A DNA stretch of 64,000 nucleotides, taken from Rufibacter immobilis (lineage in GTDB: Bacteria > Bacteroidota > Bacteroidia > Cytophagales > Hymenobacteraceae). A model generated the notes under the pieces. That model was not told the origin of the DNA. It searched no databases and worked only from the letters and a program-made list of their open reading frames with translations. Made by a program: the position numbers and the translations under genes. Where the stretch lies: positions 1,104,636-1,168,635 of the forward strand of contig NZ_RJJE01000017.1 of the NCBI RefSeq assembly GCF_003721565.1, given 5' to 3'. Of the stretch, positions 1 to 9,788 are shown piece after piece. How positions within the stretch are numbered: the first letter of the stretch is position 1; every line of letters starts with the position of its first letter.

Positions 1-372
1 CTCCTGCAAAAGAAGAACCCCAACCGCCTGGTGTATTACACAGAGGCAGACCTGCCCTGGCCCCTCACAGACCGCGACATGGTGGTAGAAGCAGTCTTCT
101 CCCCCATTTCCCAGAACCAGCAGGCGCGGGTGGAGGTCAGAAGTGTGTCTGGGTACGTACCGGAGAAAGAAGACTTTGTGCGCATTCCCTCCTCCCTGGC
201 CGTGTGGGAAATCTCTACGGTAGCCAAAGACCGTATTAAAGTAGTCTACACTTTCAGCGTGAACCCGGGCGGCTCAGTACCGGCCTGGCTGGTCAATGCC
301 ACGGTGGCCACTGGACCGCACAAGACGTTCCAGAACCTGAGGAAACTCCTGCAAAAGCAGCCCAACCCCTGA
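1..372 (+). CDS. START-domain lipid-binding protein, 3' end only
   Basis: The frame is open from base 1 with no start in the window, so this is the C-terminal 123 residues of a longer gene. The residues YYTEADLPWPLTDRDMV and the later stretch ending in a helix (GPHKTFQNLRKLLQKQ) fit the C-terminal half of a START (StAR-related lipid transfer) domain, which folds around a hydrophobic ligand. In bacteria these are single-domain proteins of about 200 residues of unknown ligand. It ends before a weak hairpin-like relic near 390-420 and is unlikely to be co-transcribed with pheA, which has its own promoter. Family assignment is from motif recognition only. Confidence 0.7.
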   Translation, partial: LLQKKNPNRLVYYTEADLPWPLTDRDMVVEAVFSPISQNQQARVEVRSVSGYVPEKEDFVRIPSSLAVWEISTVAKDRIKVVYTFSVNPGGSVPAWLVNATVATGPHKTFQNLRKLLQKQPNP

Positions 373-521
373 AAACTCACCTCTGTTTTGGCGCTGATTC
401 TGGAAAAAGAGCCGCTAATGGCAGCGTATTCAAATTTCACTAACGAGCATTTGCTTATACTTTCAATTTCTCAAACTAACAAGCGTTTTCTTACTATTTT
501 TCGCAAATAATTTCTTTTTTG

Positions 522-553
522 TTTGGATGTGAAAAAGGTACCCTGTAAGTTTG
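522..553 (+). promoter_or_regulatory. Bacteroidota-type promoter of the aromatic operon
   Basis: TTTG at 522-525 and TAAGTTTG at 546-553 are separated by exactly 20 bases, matching the Bacteroidota primary sigma consensus (-33 TTTG, -7 TAnnTTTG). Transcription would begin near 560, about 16 bases before the leader peptide ATG at 576. Confidence 0.75.
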
Positions 554-575
554 GGACATCATTAGAGCAAAAACA

Positions 576-644
576 ATGATTCAGCGCAATTCTTACTTTT
601 ACGGTTTTTACTTTTTTGGACCTCATCCGGGGCTCAACAGGTAA
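576..644 (+). CDS. Tyr/Phe-rich leader peptide of the aromatic operon attenuator
   Basis: A 22-codon reading frame starts with ATG at 576 and ends with TAA at 642-644. It contains the run SYFYGFYFF: four Phe and three Tyr codons within nine codons. Its distal codons (628-635) form the 5' arm of an antiterminator complementary to 681-688. This is the layout of a classical amino acid operon leader: scarcity of charged Phe-tRNA or Tyr-tRNA would stall the ribosome in the run, free 628-635 to pair with the terminator arm and allow read-through into pheA; normal translation to the TAA covers 628-635 and lets the terminator form. The composition matches the products of the genes behind it. Confidence 0.85.
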   Translation: MIQRNSYFYGFYFFGPHPGLNR

Positions 645-688
645 GACTTTGCGTTAAGAAAACGATTAAGACAAACCACAGAGCCCCG
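628..688 (+). promoter_or_regulatory. antiterminator pairing of the phe/tyr attenuator
   Basis: CGGGGCTC at 628-635 is the exact reverse complement of GAGCCCCG at 681-688. The second segment is also the 5' arm of the terminator at 683-701, so the two structures exclude each other. The first segment lies inside the last codons of the leader peptide, where a ribosome finishing translation would mask it. Confidence 0.8.
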
Positions 689-707
689 CCAAAAGCGGGG
701 CTTTTTT
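683..707 (+). terminator. attenuator terminator directly before pheA
   Basis: GCCCCGC (683-689) and GCGGGGC (695-701) form a seven-pair GC stem with a short A-rich loop, followed by six T (702-707). The T run ends four bases before the pheA ATG at 712, so the hairpin could also hinder ribosome access to that start. Confidence 0.85.
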
Positions 708-711
708 CGTT

Positions 712-1593
712 ATGAACAGAACGTTAAAAATCGCCATCCAGGGAGGTCCGGCCTCATTCCATGAAACAGCCGCTGAGCAGCTGTTTCCCGCAGAGAACAT
801 CCACACGCTTTCCTGCGCCTCTTTCCCGGAGCTCTGCCAGACCCTGGAATCTGGTCAGGCCGACTTCGCCGTGATGGCGGTGCAGAATTCGCTGGCGGGT
901 CCGCTACTGCCCAACTACAGCCTGGTGGCGCAGCACGGTTTCTCTATCCTGGCCGAGCGCTGGCTGTTGCTGGACCAGACCCTGATGGCATTGCCCGGCC
1001 AGCGGCTGGCAGATATTGAGCAGGTATGGTCCCACCCCATTGCGTTGCTCCAGTGCTCAGAATTCATTCACACGCACCCGCGCCTCAGCACCAAGGAAAC
1101 GTCAGACACCGCAGATACCGCCCGTCTGCTCAGAGAAGGCAGCATTACCGGGGTAGCCGCCATCGCCAGCCGCAAAGCTGCCCAACTGTACGGTCTGGAG
1201 GTGCTGGAAGCCAACGTAGCCAATGACACAGAGAATTACACCCGCTTTGTGGTGCTGTCGCGGCAGGCCAAAGCCCAGGAGGCCAACAAACTGACCTGCG
1301 TACTCCCCTCCCCAACTGAGAAAGAACTCACCGACATTCTGCTCAAGGAACTGGAGGAACTGAACCTGGAACTTACCATGCTCCAGACCCTGCCCGCTCA
1401 CCCATCGGATTGGGTACTGGAAGTGGAGGCCGATGACGCTGCCGCTATCAGCAACCTCCGGACGGCTTTGATTGTGGCCGATGTTCCCCACCAGGTGCTG
1501 GGGCTTTACGCCAAAGCCGTTACTCCGCTTCCGCAGGACCGGCTGGCAGGCTGCTTATCCGCTATCGTACAACCCCAAATTGAACTGGTATGA
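712..1593 (+). CDS. pheA: prephenate dehydratase
   Basis: Converts prephenate to phenylpyruvate in phenylalanine synthesis. The 293 residues show a PDT domain with the signature T177-R178-F179 (NYTRFVVL), a SHPIALLQC segment near 107-115 corresponding to the usual SHPQALxQC, DTADTAR near 132-138 and an IASRKAAQLYGL segment. A C-terminal ACT-like region follows (about 195-270), but the canonical phenylalanine-binding ESRP motif is not recognisable (LPAHPSDW at the equivalent place), so feedback inhibition may differ. First gene of the operon; its stop overlaps the next start (ATGA, 1590-1593), implying translational coupling. Expression is probably set by the leader-peptide attenuator immediately upstream. 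Confidence 0.93.
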   Translation: MNRTLKIAIQGGPASFHETAAEQLFPAENIHTLSCASFPELCQTLESGQADFAVMAVQNSLAGPLLPNYSLVAQHGFSILAERWLLLDQTLMALPGQRLADIEQVWSHPIALLQCSEFIHTHPRLSTKETSDTADTARLLREGSITGVAAIASRKAAQLYGLEVLEANVANDTENYTRFVVLSRQAKAQEANKLTCVLPSPTEKELTDILLKELEELNLELTMLQTLPAHPSDWVLEVEADDAAAISNLRTALIVADVPHQVLGLYAKAVTPLPQDRLAGCLSAIVQPQIELV

Positions 1594-2783
1594 TCATTTC
1601 CAGCGCAAACCGGTTGGAGCAAGTGCAGGAGTACTACTTCTCCCGCAAACTGGCCGAAGTACGTGCCCTCAACGCCCAGGGCCGCAACATCATGAACCTG
1701 GGCATTGGCGACCCAGACATGGCCCCCTCTGAGGAAACCATTAACGCTTTGGTGCAGACGGCCCGGCAAACGGGGGTGCACGGTTACCAGCCCTATAACT
1801 CCATTGCGCCGCTTCGGCAGGCCATGGCCCACTGGTACCAGCGCACCTACGGCGTAGACCTGAACCCCGAACACGAGATTCTCCCCCTCATGGGTTCCAA
1901 AGAGGGTATCTTCCATGTCTCCATGGCTTTCCTCAACCCCGGCGATAAAGTGCTGGTGCCTAATCCCGGTTATCCGGCCTATGCCGCAACCGCCAGACTG
2001 GTAGGCGCTGAGCCCGTTTTCTACACCCTAAGAGAGGAAAATGGCTGGCTTCCCGACTTGCAGGAACTGCAAACTATTCTGCAAGCCGGCGATGTGAAAC
2101 TCATGTGGCTCAACTACCCGCACATGCCCACCGGGGCCGAGGCTACCAAGGAAATGATGCAGTCTCTGGTGGACCTGGCCCTTGCGCATCAATTCCTGCT
2201 GGCCAATGACAATCCCTACAGCCTGGTACTGCCCCATCAGGCGCCGTTGAGCCTGCTTTCGGTGCCACGGGCCAAAGAATGTTGCCTGGAGTTCAACTCC
2301 CTGAGCAAATCGCATAACATGGCGGGCTGGCGGGTTGGCATGGTGCTGGGACGGCAAGATTACCTTCAGTGCGTGCTGCGCGTGAAAAGCAACCTGGACT
2401 CCGGCATGTTCCTGCCCGTGCAGCAGGCCGCCGTGGCCGCACTCTCCAACCCAGACACCTGGCACCAGGAGCGGAACCAAGTCTACGCCCAACGCCGCCA
2501 GAAGGTGTTTGAACTGCTGGATATGCTGGGTTGTTCTTATCAGAAAGCAGCCGTGGGCATGTTTGTGTGGGCGCGGGTTCCGCAGGCAGTTGCAGATGTG
2601 GAGGCCTTTCTGGATGACATTCTGTACAACGCGGGCGTGTTCCTGACGCTCGGTAAAATATTCGGGACGCAGGGCGAACGCTACCTACGGGTTTCCCTCT
2701 GCCTGCCCCTTGAGAAAATAGAAGAAGCCACTAAACGAATTTTAACACATGTAACCTCGGCAACCGCCGAATTGTCCTTATGA
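1590..2783 (+). CDS. class I/II aminotransferase (aromatic amino acid type)
   Basis: PLP-dependent fold-type I aminotransferase of 397 residues. Visible landmarks are N175-Y176 (LNYPHMPTGA), D207 in NDNPYS, the Schiff-base lysine K240 in SLSKSHNMAGWRVG and the carboxylate-binding arginine near 248 and again toward the C-terminus (RYLRVSLC). The family includes aspartate, LL-diaminopimelate and aromatic aminotransferases; wedged between prephenate dehydratase and DAHP synthase/chorismate mutase, it most likely transaminates phenylpyruvate and hydroxyphenylpyruvate. Both ends overlap neighbours by four bases, so the three genes form one tightly coupled operon. Confidence 0.9.
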   Translation: MIISSANRLEQVQEYYFSRKLAEVRALNAQGRNIMNLGIGDPDMAPSEETINALVQTARQTGVHGYQPYNSIAPLRQAMAHWYQRTYGVDLNPEHEILPLMGSKEGIFHVSMAFLNPGDKVLVPNPGYPAYAATARLVGAEPVFYTLREENGWLPDLQELQTILQAGDVKLMWLNYPHMPTGAEATKEMMQSLVDLALAHQFLLANDNPYSLVLPHQAPLSLLSVPRAKECCLEFNSLSKSHNMAGWRVGMVLGRQDYLQCVLRVKSNLDSGMFLPVQQAAVAALSNPDTWHQERNQVYAQRRQKVFELLDMLGCSYQKAAVGMFVWARVPQAVADVEAFLDDILYNAGVFLTLGKIFGTQGERYLRVSLCLPLEKIEEATKRILTHVTSATAELSL

Positions 2784-3883
2784 GCGCGAAACCTTTAGAC
2801 CTGTCCTCCAAAACTATTTTCAAACGTGCCGATGGGCAACCGCTGATCATTGCCGGCCCTTGCAGCGCCGAAAGCGAAGAACAAATGCTGGCCACGGCCC
2901 GCGGTTTGCAGTCGGTGCCGGAGGTAACCATTTTCCGGGCCGGTATCTGGAAACCCCGCACCCGCCCCGGTGCATTTGAAGGCATTGGCAAAGTGGGCCT
3001 CAAATGGCTCAAAACCGTGAAAGAAGAAACCGGCATGCTCACCGCCTGTGAAGTGGCCACCGCCGAACACGTGAACGATGCCCTTAAGCAAGGCGTGGAT
3101 GTACTTTGGGTAGGTGCCCGCACTACCGTGAACCCCTTCTCGGTGCAGGAGATCGCCGATGCCCTGGAAGGCGTAGATGTTCCCGTGCTGGTAAAGAATC
3201 CGGTAAACCCAGATTTACAACTGTGGCTGGGTGCACTGGAGCGCCTGAACCGCGCCGGTATCACTGATCTGGCCGCCATTCACCGCGGATTCTCTTCCTT
3301 TGACAGCCGCCCGTACCGCAACCACCCCAAGTGGAACATGGCGTATGAGTTCAAGAAACTGCTGCCGGAGATTCCGCTTATCTGTGACCCCAGCCACATT
3401 GCCGGCAAGCGCGCGCTGTTGCAGCAGATCAGCCAGGAAGCCCTCAACCTGCACGTAGACGGCCTCATGATTGAGACGCACTGCAACCCAGACGTAGCTT
3501 TAAGTGACGCGGCCCAGCAAGTTACTCCAGAGGGACTTAAACAACTATTAGCCTCGCTCAACGTGGAACCGGTTATCCAGGACGTGCCCCAGAACGAAGA
3601 GGAACTGAGCGAACTCCGGAACCTTATTGACTACCTGGACAACGAACTGATTAACGTGCTGGCCCGTCGTTCGGCGGTAGCCAAGCAGATCGGGATCCTG
3701 AAGAAGGAAAACAAGATGAACCTGCTGCAGACTGGCCGTTGGGAACAGGTGATGGAGCAGCGCCTGAAAGCCGCCGCCCGTGAAGGTCTGGAAGAAGTAT
3801 TCGTGAAAGCCATTTTCCATGAGATCCACCAGAACTCCCTGCACGTGCAGGCCGCCGCTGAGTCTGTGAAAGTCGCGCTCTAA
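2780..3883 (+). CDS. bifunctional DAHP synthase / chorismate mutase
   Basis: Catalyses the first shikimate-pathway step (PEP + erythrose 4-phosphate to DAHP) and chorismate to prephenate. Residues 1-260 form a type I-beta (KdsA-like) DAHP synthase with IIAGPCSAES near 23-32, the Lys/Arg-rich GIWKPRTRPGAFEG and the metal-binding ICDPSHIAGKR and LMIETHCNPD motifs. Residues about 275-355 are an AroQ-class chorismate mutase (LRNLIDYLDNELINVLARR, later QRLKAAAREGLEE). The fusion with a C-terminal mutase is common in Bacteroidota. It overlaps the aminotransferase by four bases. No prephenate dehydrogenase (tyrA) follows, although tyrA often completes this operon in relatives. Confidence 0.93.
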   Translation: MSAKPLDLSSKTIFKRADGQPLIIAGPCSAESEEQMLATARGLQSVPEVTIFRAGIWKPRTRPGAFEGIGKVGLKWLKTVKEETGMLTACEVATAEHVNDALKQGVDVLWVGARTTVNPFSVQEIADALEGVDVPVLVKNPVNPDLQLWLGALERLNRAGITDLAAIHRGFSSFDSRPYRNHPKWNMAYEFKKLLPEIPLICDPSHIAGKRALLQQISQEALNLHVDGLMIETHCNPDVALSDAAQQVTPEGLKQLLASLNVEPVIQDVPQNEEELSELRNLIDYLDNELINVLARRSAVAKQIGILKKENKMNLLQTGRWEQVMEQRLKAAAREGLEEVFVKAIFHEIHQNSLHVQAAAESVKVAL

Positions 3884-3971
3884 GGAACTGAAAATCGGCC
3901 TAGAGTTAATGTACTCCTGAGTGCCTGTTCATGCCTTAAATGTATGGCTACACCTGCTGAGTTTCTCGTCT

Positions 3972-4007
3972 GTTTTAGGCTTGTTTTCAGAAAAACAGCC
4001 CCTAAAC
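3972..4007. repeat. GTTTAGGGGC-type intergenic hairpin, left arm degenerate
   Basis: Right arm AAAAACAGCCCCTAAAC is intact; left arm (GTTTTAGGCTTGTTTT) carries substitutions. One member of the hairpin family found throughout the window. Confidence 0.7.
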
Positions 4008-4054
4008 GGCGGCGCAAATCTCCGCTTAGTAGCATAAGCCAATAGCCTAAAAAA

Positions 4055-4096
4055 GCAGAGGGGCCCGTCTATAGCAGACGGGCCCCTCTGCTTTTT
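4055..4096 (+). terminator. strong rho-independent terminator after the aromatic operon
   Basis: A perfect 16-bp stem (4055-4070 with 4076-4091) with a five-base loop is followed by T5 and preceded by A6, so it could stop transcription from either side. It closes the aromatic operon before the lipoprotein gene. Confidence 0.9.
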
Positions 4097-4256
4097 GTCT
4101 TGGAGTTATAGGTTAGCCTCTTGGCTGTTTAGCGGCCGTTTTTCCCAAAACTCACTCAAAACAAAGTTACTTTTACAGGCTTATAGATCAGGAGCCGCAC
4201 CAAAGCAGGTCCTCTCGTATACAGCTAGTACTTTTACGAACCATTCCGCCTACACT

Positions 4257-5582
4257 ATGAAAAAAATACGGACCCTCTCGGTGCTTCTGCTGGCCGGCAG
4301 CCTGTTAGCCGCCTGCAACACCCAAAACAAGAAAGAGACGCAGCAGCAAAAGGGCAACCAGACGGCGCCGGTGGCTGACCGGGTAAAACTTCCGCCGCCT
4401 TACGCCACCGAATCTGTCAAGAACTACAGCAAAGTCATTGGCTGGCCCAAAGACAAAACGCCCCAGGCACCCGCGGGCTTCACGGTGAATAAGTTTGCCG
4501 ACGGCCTCCGGAATCCGCGCTGGATTTACGTGGCCCCTAACGGCGATATTTTCGTGGCCGAGGCCGAGACCATGAAGAAAGGGAAAGAAATAGCCGAAGC
4601 CAGACGCACCGGGCAGAGCAAATCGCAGAACATGGGCCGTAGCGCCAACCGCATCACCCTCTTCCGTGACCGCGACCAGGACGGGGTGCCCGAGCAGCGG
4701 TACACGTTTCTGCGCCGTCTCAACCAACCCTTCGGGATGCTGGTGCTCAACAACTATTTCTACGTGGCCAACACAGACGGGCTCTGGCGCTACCCTTACC
4801 AACCGGGACAAACCTCCATCCAGGGCCGCGGCGAAAAGATTCTGGAACTGCCCGCTGGAGGCTACAACAACCACTGGACCCGCAACATTGTGGCCAACGC
4901 CGATGGCTCTAAGATTTACATTGCCGTAGGCTCCGGCAGTGACCACGGCGAGAACGGCATGGAGCATGAAGTGCGGCGCGCCAACATTCTGGAGATAAAC
5001 CCAGACGGCAGCGGCGAACGCATCTTTGCCAGCGGCCTGCGCAATCCGGTGGGCATTGGCTGGGCTCCCGGCACCAACACCCTCTGGGCCGCCGTGAACG
5101 AGCGCGACGATTTAGGCGATGAACTAGTCCCCGATTACCTCACCAGCGTGAAGGAAGGCGGCTTTTATGGCTGGCCCTACGCCTATTTCGGACCCAACGA
5201 AGATCCGCGGCAGAAAGGCAAGCGGCCCGATCTGGTGAAGAAAACGACACTACCTGAGGTAGGACTGGGCGCCCACACCGCCTCTTTGGGCCTGGCGTTC
5301 TACAACCGGTCCACGTTCCCGGGCAAATACCGCGGCGGGGCGTTCATTGGCCAGCACGGCTCCTGGAACCGCTCTGAGCTTTCGGGGTATAAGGTGGTGT
5401 TTGTGGCTTTCCAGAACGGCAAACCCGTAAGAGACCCAGAGGATTTCCTCACCGGCTTCATCGCCGATGCCGAGAAAGGCCAGGTGTACGGAAGGCCGGT
5501 GGGAATTGCCGTGCTCCCAGACGGCTCTCTCCTGGTAGCCGATGATTCCAGCAACACCCTTTGGCGGGTGGCCGCCAAATAA
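4257..5582 (+). CDS. PQQ-dependent sugar dehydrogenase (sorbosone/glucose dehydrogenase family) lipoprotein
   Basis: A 441-residue exported beta-propeller protein. I place the start at 4257 because MKKIRTLSVLLLAGSLLAAC is a lipoprotein signal peptide with lipobox LAAC; the frame is open further upstream but into the terminator. Propeller motifs are GLRNPRWIYVAPNGDIFVAE, RNPVGIGWAPGTNTLWAAV, GGFYGWPYAYFG, AFIGQHGSWNR and YGRPVGIAVLPDGSLLVADD, typical of soluble-glucose-dehydrogenase/L-sorbosone-dehydrogenase-like proteins, which oxidise sugars or aldoses with PQQ. It should sit on the periplasmic or outer face of the envelope. The true substrate cannot be read from sequence. Confidence 0.85.
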   Translation: MKKIRTLSVLLLAGSLLAACNTQNKKETQQQKGNQTAPVADRVKLPPPYATESVKNYSKVIGWPKDKTPQAPAGFTVNKFADGLRNPRWIYVAPNGDIFVAEAETMKKGKEIAEARRTGQSKSQNMGRSANRITLFRDRDQDGVPEQRYTFLRRLNQPFGMLVLNNYFYVANTDGLWRYPYQPGQTSIQGRGEKILELPAGGYNNHWTRNIVANADGSKIYIAVGSGSDHGENGMEHEVRRANILEINPDGSGERIFASGLRNPVGIGWAPGTNTLWAAVNERDDLGDELVPDYLTSVKEGGFYGWPYAYFGPNEDPRQKGKRPDLVKKTTLPEVGLGAHTASLGLAFYNRSTFPGKYRGGAFIGQHGSWNRSELSGYKVVFVAFQNGKPVRDPEDFLTGFIADAEKGQVYGRPVGIAVLPDGSLLVADDSSNTLWRVAAK

Positions 5583-5653
5583 TCAGCGGTGAAAGCAAGA
5601 CCATGGGTACAGACCTTACGCTATACTGCGGTAGTTTAACTTTTAATTCATTT

Positions 5654-5691
5654 GCGTTTAGCGGCCGTTTTTTGGAAAACAGGCGCTAAAC
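5654..5691. repeat. GTTTAGGGGC-type intergenic hairpin
   Basis: GTTTAGCGGCCGTTTT pairs imperfectly with AAAACAGGCGCTAAAC. Lies between the sugar dehydrogenase and hydrolase genes. Confidence 0.75.
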
Positions 5692-5732
5692 ACACCTTCA
5701 GCTTCCTAGTCAGGAAGAATACGTACTTGCTT

Positions 5733-6728
5733 ATGAACAAGCTCAGAATCTTAGTTTGCCTGCTTCTACTGGCGGTCACGGCGCAGGCACAGAGCCAGGT
5801 GGCGCCGCAGGACGCGGAATTATCTACTTATCAATACCCTTTCCCGGTGGCCTTCCATCCGGTGCACGTGCAGCGCCAGGCGTTTAAAATGGCATACATG
5901 GACCTGAAACCGCAGAAACCCAATGGCAAAACCGTGGTGCTGCTGCACGGGAAGAACTTCAACGGGGCCTACTGGGAACAAACGGCCAGAGATTTGTCTA
6001 AAAACGGCTTTAGAGTGATCATGCCAGACCAGATTGGGTTTGGAAAATCGTCTAAGCCGCAGAACATCCAGTACACGTTCCAGATGCTGGCCCAAAACAC
6101 TAAAGGGCTGTTAGACAGCCTGGGCGTGAAGAAAGCAGCCGTGCTGGGCCACTCCATGGGCGGGATGCTGGCCACCCGTTTCGCGCTCATGTACCCCGAT
6201 TTCACCGAGAAGCTGATACTGGAAAACCCCATCGGGCTGGAAGACTGGAAACGCTGGGTGCCTTACCAAACCGTGGAGAAATGGTACGCCGGCGAGCTGA
6301 AACAAACCCAGGCAGGCATTAAGAAATATCAGCTGGAAAACTACTACGGCGGCCAGTGGAAACCCGAGTACGACCGCTGGGTGAACCTGCTGGCCAGCTG
6401 GACCACCGGCCCCGATTACCCCGAAGTGGCCTGGAACGCCGCCCTCACCTATGATATGATCTTCACGCAACCGGTGGTGTATGAGTTTGACCAGCTCCAG
6501 ATGCCCACTCTCCTGCTCATTGGGCAACGGGACCGCACGGCTTTAGGCAAAGCCAACGCCCCGGCTGCCGCCCGGAAGAAACTAGGCAACTACCCGGCTC
6601 TGGGCAAAGAAACCGCCAGGAAAATCCCCAATGCCAAACTGGTAGAGTTGGACAACGTAGGGCACCTGCCGCACATTGAGGCGTATGATCGGTTTATCCA
6701 ACCGTTGGTGGCCTTCCTCAGGAACTAG
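5733..6728 (+). CDS. secreted alpha/beta hydrolase
   Basis: A 331-residue alpha/beta hydrolase. The start at 5733 is chosen because it begins a clean signal peptide (MNKLRILVCLLLLAVTAQAQ); upstream codons run through a repeat hairpin. The core shows VVLLHGKNFNGAYW (oxyanion HG motif), PDQIGFGKSSKP, the nucleophile elbow GHSMGG with Ser about 141, an acid in LLLIGQRDRTALG and the histidine in LDNVGHLPHIEAYDRF, so the triad is complete. It is likely periplasmic. Relatives include haloalkane dehalogenase-like and epoxide hydrolase-like enzymes; substrate unknown. Followed by a hairpin repeat. Confidence 0.88.
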   Translation: MNKLRILVCLLLLAVTAQAQSQVAPQDAELSTYQYPFPVAFHPVHVQRQAFKMAYMDLKPQKPNGKTVVLLHGKNFNGAYWEQTARDLSKNGFRVIMPDQIGFGKSSKPQNIQYTFQMLAQNTKGLLDSLGVKKAAVLGHSMGGMLATRFALMYPDFTEKLILENPIGLEDWKRWVPYQTVEKWYAGELKQTQAGIKKYQLENYYGGQWKPEYDRWVNLLASWTTGPDYPEVAWNAALTYDMIFTQPVVYEFDQLQMPTLLLIGQRDRTALGKANAPAAARKKLGNYPALGKETARKIPNAKLVELDNVGHLPHIEAYDRFIQPLVAFLRN

Positions 6729-6733
6729 CCGCT

Positions 6734-6777
6734 TTCTGTTTAGGGGCTGTTTTTCCAAAAACAGCCCCTAAACAGAA
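6734..6777. repeat. GTTTAGGGGC-type intergenic hairpin (canonical)
   Basis: GTTTAGGGGCTGTTTTT and AAAAACAGCCCCTAAAC pair perfectly; flanking TTCT/AGAA extends the stem by locus-specific pairs. Confidence 0.9.
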
Positions 6778-6839
6778 TATTTTTTGTAAGCATTAAACTT
6801 ATTGAAGATTGGGTAGTCTAAGCACAAACCAATTGTTCA

Positions 6840-9788
6840 ATGAGAAAAATATCATTACTCTTCATTCTATTTCTAGCCATCTCCGTTGCAGGATATGGTC
6901 AGTCAACATCCGTGAGAGGCCAGGCCGTGGGAGGTGGTTCTCCCTTGATAGGGGCCACGGTAGCCCTGCTGAACGCGCAGGATTCCAGTGTGTACAAAGG
7001 AGCCGCCACAGACGTGGAGGGCAGATTTGAGATTGCCGGTATCCCCAACGGACGTTTCGTGCTCAAGGTGTCTTACCTGGGCTTCAGCGACTTTTACCGG
7101 GCCATCACGGCCGCCGGAGCCCCCATCCAGTTGGGCACCATCACGCTGGGCCAGGGAGCCACTCAGTTGAAAGAAGTGGAAGTAGTGGGCCGCGCCGCCA
7201 CCGTCATCCAGAAGCAGGATACCTCTGAGATGAACGCGGCCGCCTTCAAAGTAAACCGCGACGCCAACGCCGAGAACCTCATCCAGAAAATGCCGGGCAT
7301 CACCATCCAGAACGGACAGGTGCAGGCCCAGGGCGAACGGGTGCAGCGCGTGCTGGTAGACGGGAAAGAATTTTTCGGGGAAGATCCCAGCGCGGTACTC
7401 AAGAACTTGCCTGCCGAGGTGATCTCCAAAATACAGGTTTTTGACCGCCAGAGCGACCAGGCCCAGTTTACCGGCTTCAACGACGGCAACGAACAGAAAA
7501 CCATCAACATCGTGACCAAACCCGAGTTCCGGACCGGCCGTTTCGGGCGGATCAGCGCCGGAGCGGGTACTGACAATCGCTATAGAATCAGCGGGAACAT
7601 CAACCAATTTGAGGGGGACCGCCGCATTTCCATTGTGGGCCTGAGCAATAACGTGAACGAGCAGAACTTCTCCTCCGAAGACCTGGTGGGCGTAGCCAGC
7701 GCCTCTAGCCGGGGCGGCGGAAACCGGGGAGGCGGAGGCGGTGGTGGTCCCCGCGGTGGCGGAGGTGGCGGCTTTGGCGGCGGCAACAACACCGGCGACT
7801 TTCTGGTGAACACCAACAACGGGATTGCCAAAACCAACGCCATAGGCATCAACTACCTGGACAAATGGGGCAAGAAAGTAGACGTGCAGGGCAGTTACTT
7901 CTTCAACCACACAGACAATGACTATACCTATTCTTCTTTCAGGAACTTTGAACGCGACGGCTACCAGGTAAGTGAGAATGGCAATTCAAACGGATTGAAC
8001 CAGAACCACAGATTCAATCTGAGGTTAACTTATAACATAGACTCAGCTAACTCCATTATTGTGCGGCCTAGGCTGAGTGTGCAGAAGAACAACGGCGACA
8101 GCTTTACAGAATCCAACCTGCTGGGAAACCTGGATGGGCAGCCAAGGAATATCTTCATCAATAACTTTGACAACCTGTTCCGTTCAGACCTGACGGGCAT
8201 TAACTTCAACAACAACATCCTGTACCGCCACAGTTTTGCCAAAAGAGGACGTACCATCAGCTTGGATGTATCCAATGGGTACAATCAGAACAAAGGTGAC
8301 AGCAGATCTGATATCTCTTACTTCTTTGACCGCAACAATGAGGGCGACGACTCACTGATTTACCTGAATTCAAACTTAAACAACAAGGGCTACTCTGTGG
8401 GTGGAAGCCTGAATTATACCGAGCCCCTCACCCAGAACACGCAATTGCAGCTAACGTACGCCACCAACTACAGCAACTCAGACGGCGACAGACGCACCTA
8501 TCAATTCCGGCCGGTAACGGAAATGTATGACAGCCTGGTGACAAACCAATCCAGCACGGTAGACAATGTGACCAAAACGCAGGAATTTGGCGGTGGCTGG
8601 CGCTACAATACCCGTAACTTCCAGTTAATGCTGAGTGCCCGTTACCAATGGTTGCAGCTCTCTACTGACCAGTTGTACCCTACTGCTATAGACACCACCC
8701 GCAACTACCACAATGTGTTGCCGTTCGCCATGTTACGCTACAACTTCAATCAGGACCGCAACATCAGGGTCTTCTACATGGGCCGTTCGCAGACTCCTTC
8801 TGTAGATCAGTTACAGAGTGCGGTAGATGTGTCCAGCCCAACCTTGATCACGCAGGGGAACCCCAACCTGGGCCAGAGCTTCAGCCATAACTTCAACATC
8901 AGGTACTCAGCGGCGAATCCCGGCAAGTCTTCTAACTTCTTTGCAGTTTTGGGCGGCTCCGTAAGCCAGGACTATATTGGCCGACTCACCATCAGAAACA
9001 ACGCTAGAGGCGAAAACGCTCCTTCCTACACCACTCCTTCCGGTATTGTCCTGAAGAGCGGGGTGCAGCTTTCCTCGCCGGTTAATCTGTCAGGCCAGTA
9101 CTCGCTCCGCTCATTCTTCAACTACGGTCTGCCCTTGGGTTTCATCAAGTCAAACCTGAACCTGAACGCCAACGCGACCTATTCTTACACCCCAGCGCTG
9201 TACGCCGACACTGAAAGCGCCTACAGAATCGTGAACAATGATACCAAAAGCACCAACGTGGGCGCAGGCGTGGTTCTGAGCAGCAACATCAGTGAGAACT
9301 TTGACTTCCTGGTGTCCACAAATGCTACGTACAATAAAGTAGACTATACTTACCTTACGCAGCAGGGCAACAACAACTACAACCAAAGCAGTTTGGTACG
9401 CCTAAACTGGCTGGCCTGGAAAGGTCTGAACATCACCACTGAAGTGAACCACCAATACAACGGCGGACTTTCTGCGGGCATAGACAAGACGTTCATGCTC
9501 TGGAACGGCAGCATTGGCTACAAGTTCATGAAAGACCAGCAAGCCGAAATCAGGTTATCTGCCTTTGACATTCTTGGTGAGAACACCAGCATCCAGCGGA
9601 ACTACCAGGCTAACTACTATGAAGACGTGCAGACCACCGTGTTGCAGCGCTACTTCATGCTGAGCTTCAACTATAACCTGCGTCAGTTCGGTTCTGCCCG
9701 GGGTGGCAACACCCCTCCTGCTGGCAGACCAGGCGGTTACCCAGGTGGTGGCTACCCCGGCGGCGGACGCCCAGGCGGTAATTTCTAA
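6840..9788 (+). CDS. TonB-dependent receptor-like outer-membrane beta-barrel protein
   Basis: A 982-residue exported protein with signal peptide MRKISLLFILFLAISVAGYG. Residues about 22-105 are a CarboxypepD_reg-like immunoglobulin fold (VRGQAVGGGSPLIGATVALL, VLKVSYLGFSDF), about 125-230 resemble a plug (AENLIQKMPGITIQNGQVQA, RVLVDGKEFFGEDPS, TINIVTK), and the rest is a beta-barrel of the OMP_b-brl_3 type with many aromatic/aliphatic alternating strands (YNFNQDRNIRVFYMGRS, LQRYFMLSFNYNL). It resembles SusC-like proteins but stands alone with no SusD partner. Unusual are a glycine-rich external loop near 285-315 and a Gly/Pro-rich C-terminal tail instead of a terminal Phe-ended strand. Ligand unknown. 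Confidence 0.85.
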   Translation: MRKISLLFILFLAISVAGYGQSTSVRGQAVGGGSPLIGATVALLNAQDSSVYKGAATDVEGRFEIAGIPNGRFVLKVSYLGFSDFYRAITAAGAPIQLGTITLGQGATQLKEVEVVGRAATVIQKQDTSEMNAAAFKVNRDANAENLIQKMPGITIQNGQVQAQGERVQRVLVDGKEFFGEDPSAVLKNLPAEVISKIQVFDRQSDQAQFTGFNDGNEQKTINIVTKPEFRTGRFGRISAGAGTDNRYRISGNINQFEGDRRISIVGLSNNVNEQNFSSEDLVGVASASSRGGGNRGGGGGGGPRGGGGGGFGGGNNTGDFLVNTNNGIAKTNAIGINYLDKWGKKVDVQGSYFFNHTDNDYTYSSFRNFERDGYQVSENGNSNGLNQNHRFNLRLTYNIDSANSIIVRPRLSVQKNNGDSFTESNLLGNLDGQPRNIFINNFDNLFRSDLTGINFNNNILYRHSFAKRGRTISLDVSNGYNQNKGDSRSDISYFFDRNNEGDDSLIYLNSNLNNKGYSVGGSLNYTEPLTQNTQLQLTYATNYSNSDGDRRTYQFRPVTEMYDSLVTNQSSTVDNVTKTQEFGGGWRYNTRNFQLMLSARYQWLQLSTDQLYPTAIDTTRNYHNVLPFAMLRYNFNQDRNIRVFYMGRSQTPSVDQLQSAVDVSSPTLITQGNPNLGQSFSHNFNIRYSAANPGKSSNFFAVLGGSVSQDYIGRLTIRNNARGENAPSYTTPSGIVLKSGVQLSSPVNLSGQYSLRSFFNYGLPLGFIKSNLNLNANATYSYTPALYADTESAYRIVNNDTKSTNVGAGVVLSSNISENFDFLVSTNATYNKVDYTYLTQQGNNNYNQSSLVRLNWLAWKGLNITTEVNHQYNGGLSAGIDKTFMLWNGSIGYKFMKDQQAEIRLSAFDILGENTSIQRNYQANYYEDVQTTVLQRYFMLSFNYNLRQFGSARGGNTPPAGRPGGYPGGGYPGGGRPGGNF

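Follow-up and report, generated by a model that had tools for sequence, protein, structure and literature searches.

The locus described here raises the question of how pheA, the gene for prephenate dehydratase, is controlled in Rufibacter immobilis. The window, meaning the whole stretch of DNA that was analysed, comprises 64,000 nucleotides, and near its beginning a short reading frame rich in Phe and Tyr codons and a hairpin lie between a promoter and pheA. Ribosome-mediated attenuation is a textbook mechanism, long known from Escherichia coli. Judged from the sequence and from modelled folds, the pheA leader is in all likelihood a transcription attenuator of this type, sensing charged tRNA-Phe and tRNA-Tyr and controlling an operon of pheA, an aminotransferase gene and a DAHP synthase/chorismate mutase gene. 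The kind of mechanism is already known, and this instance of it is new.

All features of the locus lie on the forward strand. The promoter (522-553) consists of TTTG at 522-525, a spacer of 20 nt and TAAGTTTG at 546-553; the arrangement TTTG-N20-TAAGTTTG fits the Bacteroidota promoter consensus. The leader ORF of 22 codons (MIQRNSYFYGFYFFGPHPGLNR) occupies 576-644, with its stop codon at 642-644. Codons 7-14 (594-617) read Tyr-Phe-Tyr-Gly-Phe-Tyr-Phe-Phe, which places seven Phe or Tyr codons within eight. Inside the ORF, CGGGGCTC at 628-635 is the exact complement of GAGCCCCG at 681-688 over 8 bp, seven of which are G-C, and the two form the arms of a predicted antiterminator. The arm at 681-688 doubles as the 5′ arm of the intrinsic terminator hairpin (681-703; stem 681-689/695-703), which was found by the terminator scan with a predicted energy of -17.3 kcal/mol. 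A T6 tract (702-707) and the sequence CGTT follow, and the pheA ATG stands at 712. The initial annotation had described the promoter, the Phe/Tyr leader, the complementary arms and a terminator whose end is four bases away from the pheA ATG, all of which proved correct to the base. It lacked a further element, a predicted protector hairpin with a 5′ arm at 583-598 and a 3′ arm at 639-655, which encloses the antiterminator arm. The 3′ arm of the protector spans the leader stop codon and the bases just beyond. As a whole, the region 540-715 has a predicted fold matched by only three of 200 dinucleotide shuffles (z -2.58).

The gene behind the leader is pheA (712-1593; PF00800, E 3.2e-50). It overlaps by 4 nt with the gene of a class I/II aminotransferase (1590-2783; PF00155), and this in turn overlaps by 4 nt with a gene encoding a fusion of DAHP synthase and chorismate mutase (2780-3883; PF00793 and PF01817). 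Given these overlaps, the three genes very probably form a single operon. The sole match to prephenate dehydrogenase in the genome is located on the same contig, approximately 545 kb from pheA. Further into the window, a 20-bp terminator-like hairpin at 6734-6777 lies directly 3′ of the ORF at 5652-6728 and was the first listed in the scan of positions 1-8000.

The distribution of the leader was examined in 73 of 165 pheA matches from the family, the own genome included, and in 109, later 123, of 340 matches from the phylum. Family and genus designations such as f1 and g2 are labels used within the comparison set. A leader ORF was counted if it started with ATG, encoded 10-45 amino acids, contained at least six Phe or Tyr in 10 codons and lay within 350 nt of pheA. 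By this definition a Phe/Tyr-rich leader precedes pheA in 146 of 179 regions, against none of the 179 reverse strands and 10 of 895 dinucleotide shuffles. The codon run is not due to chance. A pheA match is present in 15 of the 16 genomes of the own genus (the exception is G408), and the leader peptide or a close variant, the terminator, the antiterminator arm and the promoter are kept in 15/15. The antiterminator arm pairs over 8 bp in 14 of these genomes and over 6 bp in one.

Across the Bacteroidota class, an ATG-initiated leader occurs in 141 of the 147 regions examined at first, which represent eight families, and two further regions carry a GTG-start version, giving 143/147. In the rest of the phylum the leader is found in five of 32 regions and is absent from 27. 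As the first draw of genomes favoured the best pheA matches, 14 omitted class genomes with a match were added later, and among these the leader was found in two when 450 nt were scanned. The class total with an ATG leader is therefore 143 of 161; the 18 without it include the two with a GTG start. In all 12 added genomes that lack the leader the pheA protein is divergent, being of the IAFLGP or AYLGP type in 11 and of another form in one, so that the leader seems to accompany an IAIQG-type pheA. In family f2, four genomes are leaderless despite a pheA of the IAIQG type. In the leaderless class members with divergent pheA (L280-L291), the attenuator and the pheA type may have been lost or replaced jointly. 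The terminator scan was blank in three class genomes with a leader (G452, G300 and G383).

The promoter was searched upstream of the leaders as the motif TTTG-N17-22-TANNTTTG. It is present in full 5′ of the leader in 15/15 same-genus units, where it is kept although the flanking DNA differs. Overall, the motif precedes 34 of 145 first leaders compared with 12 of 2900 shuffles; outside the own genus, just 19 of 130 first leaders have it in full. A simple sigma-70 scan of window positions 1-8000 returned no promoter, as expected, because the phylum uses another promoter consensus.

In the 28 genomes displayed, the arms of the antiterminator differ between families yet stay complementary. The pair GGGGCTC with GAGCCCC is one form, and others are GCCGGGACT with AGTCCCGGC, GGATTGTG with TACAATCC, GAGGCTTTGTA with TATAAAGCCTC and CGAGACCT with AGGTCTCG. 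In a swap test, in which tandem leaders were counted apart, the own leader arm with the own terminator arm beat arms from foreign genera in 46 of 49 genus-level units, with mean energies of -15.5 kcal/mol for own and -10.2 kcal/mol for foreign combinations. The corresponding values for the own genus are -18.1 and -12.7 kcal/mol, and 10% of foreign arms were equally good there. This fraction was 34% in genus g173 and at least one third in some other units. The three failures were f7 g26, the second leader of f8 g18 and f20 g62. A nominal binomial probability of 7e-11 is overstated, since the genera are not independent, but similarity among foreign arms pushes in the opposite direction. Leaders with fewer than six Phe or Tyr in 10 codons, among them the upstream leader of g2 genome G488 (five Phe or Tyr), and terminators weaker than -8 kcal/mol were dropped from the unit tables. 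A contiguous antiterminator helix of 6 bp is absent in 18 of 170 leader-terminator units.

The initial annotation had proposed to look for covariation between 628-635 and 681-688 within the family. This comparison (47 sequences of genera g1, g173 and g174) left three of the eight pairs invariant, and 12 of 500 shuffles matched its covariation score; with so little variation in the arm among family members, the test is weak and could not decide alone. The decisive covariation is therefore that of other families. A cross-family alignment of 34 sequences (A4) failed to line up the antiterminator arms, for which reason a narrower alignment of 26 sequences, hand-chosen from families f4 and f7, was adopted (A5). 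In A5, the antiterminator shows 20 cells changed on both sides, where the shuffled mean is 5.7, none of 500 shuffles is as high and slid registers reach at most 9. Pairing is possible in 82.8% of its cells compared with at most 57.3% when slid. Three rows (L136, L162 and L163) form just four of nine pairs because they are out of register. The terminator shows 26 both-sided cells (shuffled mean 9.3; 0/500 as high). The number of pairs changed on both sides is not unusual for either helix: four of nine for the antiterminator, matched by 25 of 500 shuffles, and four for the terminator, matched by 58. The same holds for further pair types, with nine in the antiterminator and 14 in the terminator, reached by 499 and 488 of 500 shuffles, respectively.

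Similar tests were applied to the protector hairpin. Within the own family, one pair in each of the two registers tested changed on both sides, in 13 cells, against shuffled means of 6.6 and 4.4, and none of 500 shuffles was as high. The own partner was better than foreign ones in 40 of 49 genus units. This signal is clearest in the single-leader genera of family f1 and weaker outside f1.

The spacing between the control codons and the antiterminator is also conserved. The search admitted starts as early as 9 nt before the last Phe/Tyr codon ends and as late as 25 nt beyond the stop codon. The median start of the antiterminator over the 49 genus units is 10 nt past the end of that Phe/Tyr codon, and the distance is 7-11 nt for 136 of the 170 units. 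In the own genus the distance is 10 nt after the last Phe codon in 14 of 15 genomes and 11 nt in one. The leading edge of the ribosome has been placed 12-15 nt from the P site (PMC3641672). The start of the antiterminator would thus be about flush with the front of a ribosome that is starved with the last control codon in its A site, and a ribosome modelled at the leader stop codon would cover the arm at 628-635.

Folding predictions with the ribosome placed are in keeping with this geometry. For RNA extending to 707, the best downstream fold is the antiterminator (-24.1) with the ribosome at the last Phe codon and the terminator (-18.5) with the ribosome at the stop codon; the ribosome-free RNA, folded from 558 to 707, is predicted to form the protector hairpin (583-598/639-655) together with the terminator (-39.9). 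In the read-through RNA with a starved ribosome, the predicted probability is 0.71 for the antiterminator and 0.30 for the terminator. The reading as a ribosome-mediated attenuator, already put forward in the initial annotation, gains support from conservation, from the cross-family covariation of both helices, from the spacing and from these folds. Comparable leaders ahead of trpE and ilvD in same-genus genomes also count in its favour.

The following course of events is proposed. Transcription would start just 3′ of position 553, and a ribosome would trail the RNA polymerase through the 22-codon leader. When Phe and Tyr are plentiful, the ribosome would proceed to the stop codon at 642-644 and cover the arm at 628-635, so that the terminator at 681-703 could form and the transcript would end near 707. 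When Phe or Tyr is scarce, the ribosome would stall within codons 7-14, leaving the arm free to capture 681-688 once these bases have been synthesized. This pairing would block the terminator and allow pheA to be transcribed. In the event that the leader is not translated, the protector would bury the arm and the terminator would form by default. Read-through would depend in this way on the charging of tRNA-Phe and tRNA-Tyr. Four features of the attenuator class are found here: a leader ORF in which codons for the end products follow one another, a predicted intrinsic terminator (stem and T6) between leader and gene, a mutually exclusive antiterminator which, by sequence and predicted folding, a stalled ribosome would expose and a ribosome at the stop codon would mask, and a protector which, by predicted fold and swap test, would give termination without translation.

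Other explanations of the same elements were considered. The hairpin ends 8 nt before the pheA start and might chiefly control translation, by blocking the ribosome until translation of the leader peptide opens it. In favour of this explanation, 14 of the 15 genomes of the own genus have 6-10 nt between the stem end and the ATG; the distance ranges, however, from 4 to 28 nt in genus g173 and from 26 to 67 nt in g2, and the stem is followed by a T6 tract. The predicted openness of 692-711 is 0.34 with a starved ribosome versus 0.31 with the ribosome at the stop, which leaves the 20 nt before the ATG about equally open in both states. Translation as the chief level of control is very unlikely. 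For the same reason, the suggestion of the initial annotation that the hairpin may act on translation in addition finds no support, and a conserved second mode in which the pheA start is occluded was discarded, both on the accessibility calculation and because the stem-ATG distance in the family lies anywhere between 4 and 67 nt.

It is extremely unlikely that the hairpin terminates transcription partially and constitutively, or serves the upstream gene as its 3′ terminator, and that the Phe/Tyr ORF is there incidentally. Chance alone produces many terminator-like hairpins in positions 1-8000 of the window, where 15 were found and 10.7 are expected; against this, the promoter kept in 15/15 same-genus units sits between the upstream ORF and the hairpin, and the leader ORF, together with its codons and the pairing arm, is conserved and covaries between families. 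An incidental terminator is ruled against by this conservation of promoter and leader. Riboswitches and T-boxes regulate amino-acid genes in other phyla, and a structure of this kind could bind Phe, Tyr or uncharged tRNA directly, with no need for translation of the leader. Next to no probability is given to such an element, and it was rejected for want of a family match: scans of the window, of 18 related pheA loci and of three further leaders of the own genome gave no gathering-score match to any Rfam family, T-box and riboswitch families included. The best sub-threshold match was Phe_leader (RF01859), with 30.4 of the 55 bits required. In addition, conservation resides in the codons and the two competing helices.

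Phe_leader is the Rfam family of the E. coli pheL-pheA attenuator, which resembles the present locus in its Phe-rich leader, its terminator and its control of a prephenate dehydratase gene. The antiterminator starts 7 nt after the last Phe codon in E. coli pheL and 10 nt after it here. There are differences as well. In the leader described here, Tyr codons are mixed with Phe codons; the antiterminator arm is part of the ORF and sits 14 nt before the stop, whereas that of pheL lies just after the stop; and the stem ends 8 nt from pheA as opposed to 27 nt in E. coli. The Bacteroid-trp motif (RF01692) is leader-peptide in nature and concerns trp, while the element here concerns phe. It gave no gathering-score match in the loci scanned and was absent from a permissive scan of the own trp leader. 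The part of the 2010 study by Weinberg that deals with this motif describes it as a predicted cis-regulatory RNA in Bacteroidetes (PMC2864571).

The statement in the initial annotation that such leaders are rarely annotated in this phylum holds for Rfam, but the accessible portion of a 2021 transcriptome study of Flavobacterium psychrophilum describes a structured 5′ element upstream of pheA, the same gene in the same phylum, which is conserved in Flavobacteriaceae and has no Rfam match (PMC9723704). The same portion reports strong clues for leader-peptide attenuation upstream of amino-acid operons, and shows neither a leader peptide nor an antiterminator, nor any distribution outside Flavobacteriaceae (PMC9723704). 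In Bacteroides thetaiotaomicron, also of this phylum, long 5′ untranslated regions were reported to contain small ORFs that recall the leader peptides of attenuators; the available text names neither an amino-acid operon nor an antiterminator or terminator (PMC7366714). A survey from 2010, in the passages available, knew of such cases only in Proteobacteria and Actinobacteria until it added one of its own from Firmicutes (PMC2965389).

In the sister genera g2 and g175 (L045, L054, L102-L123 and L132), two Phe/Tyr leaders in series precede pheA, each followed by a terminator, in 25/25 genomes examined. A contiguous antiterminator helix of at least 6 bp was found for 19 of the 24 upstream leaders and for 16 of the 24 downstream ones. 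In eight of these genomes examined in detail, pairing was found at both leaders, partly interrupted; the antiterminator arm of the upstream leader lies at or just past its stop codon and that of the downstream leader within the ORF. A genome of family f8 (G037) also has two leaders, with poor results in the swap test. The scan for the consensus promoter found none between the tandem leaders (0/24 in g2 and g175, and 0/1 in G037). This says little, as the same scan was also blank before the first leader of g2 and g175 (0/24).

Serial leaders are found for Trp in the own genus, where two precede trpE in 15/15 loci (L221-L235). Those of the own genome (L231; G000:C10 near 1098435, minus strand) are MNKTQFQHNAWWHTRQN and MGHNCWWHQSGDL, with a hairpin after each. 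The second Trp leader has a canonical terminator in 15/15 same-genus loci, and the first has a strong hairpin in 13 of 15, usually with an interrupted T tract, the scan being blank in L223 and L225. An Ile/Leu/Val leader with a terminator precedes ilvD in 10 of 14 same-genus loci (L246-L259); that of the own genome is MRHRSVICFIVITPLPQGG, with a strongly pairing arm. A His-rich leader ORF (HCHHFHHSS and variants) is located 260-370 nt upstream of the hisG match in 16/16 same-genus loci (L205-L220). Three of these loci were inspected, and no terminator was found in two and a weak hairpin (-8.7) in one, so a different downstream mechanism is perhaps at work there. A scan around homoserine dehydrogenase at 17 loci gave no convincing leader, although this was a weak test, as the matched domain sits inside the gene.

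The tandem attenuators with the same signal, for Phe/Tyr in the two sister genera and for Trp in the own genus, are the newer part of these findings and lie outside the window. A known parallel is the mgtCBR leader RNA of Salmonella, which has two leader ORFs, as do the sister genera; the available text on mgtCBR describes two different signals (ATP and proline) and no intrinsic terminators (PMC3641672). In the sister genera, by contrast, the same amino acids are read twice, and a terminator-like hairpin follows each leader. In the open-access literature, as far as its available text extends, no description was found of same-signal tandem attenuators or of a wide distribution of this kind. The serial same-signal arrangement would be new.

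The data indicate that attenuation commonly controls the synthesis of aromatic amino acids throughout a class of Bacteroidota, with a ribosome spacing near that of E. coli. The pheA attenuator is probably an ancestral element of the whole class, lacking an Rfam family and doubled in some lineages, where serial copies for the same signal would multiply repression and sharpen the response. An RNA family could readily be built from the pheA leader sequences, and they lead to simple predictions for starvation experiments. The doubled same-signal attenuators constitute a natural test of whether serial attenuators multiply.
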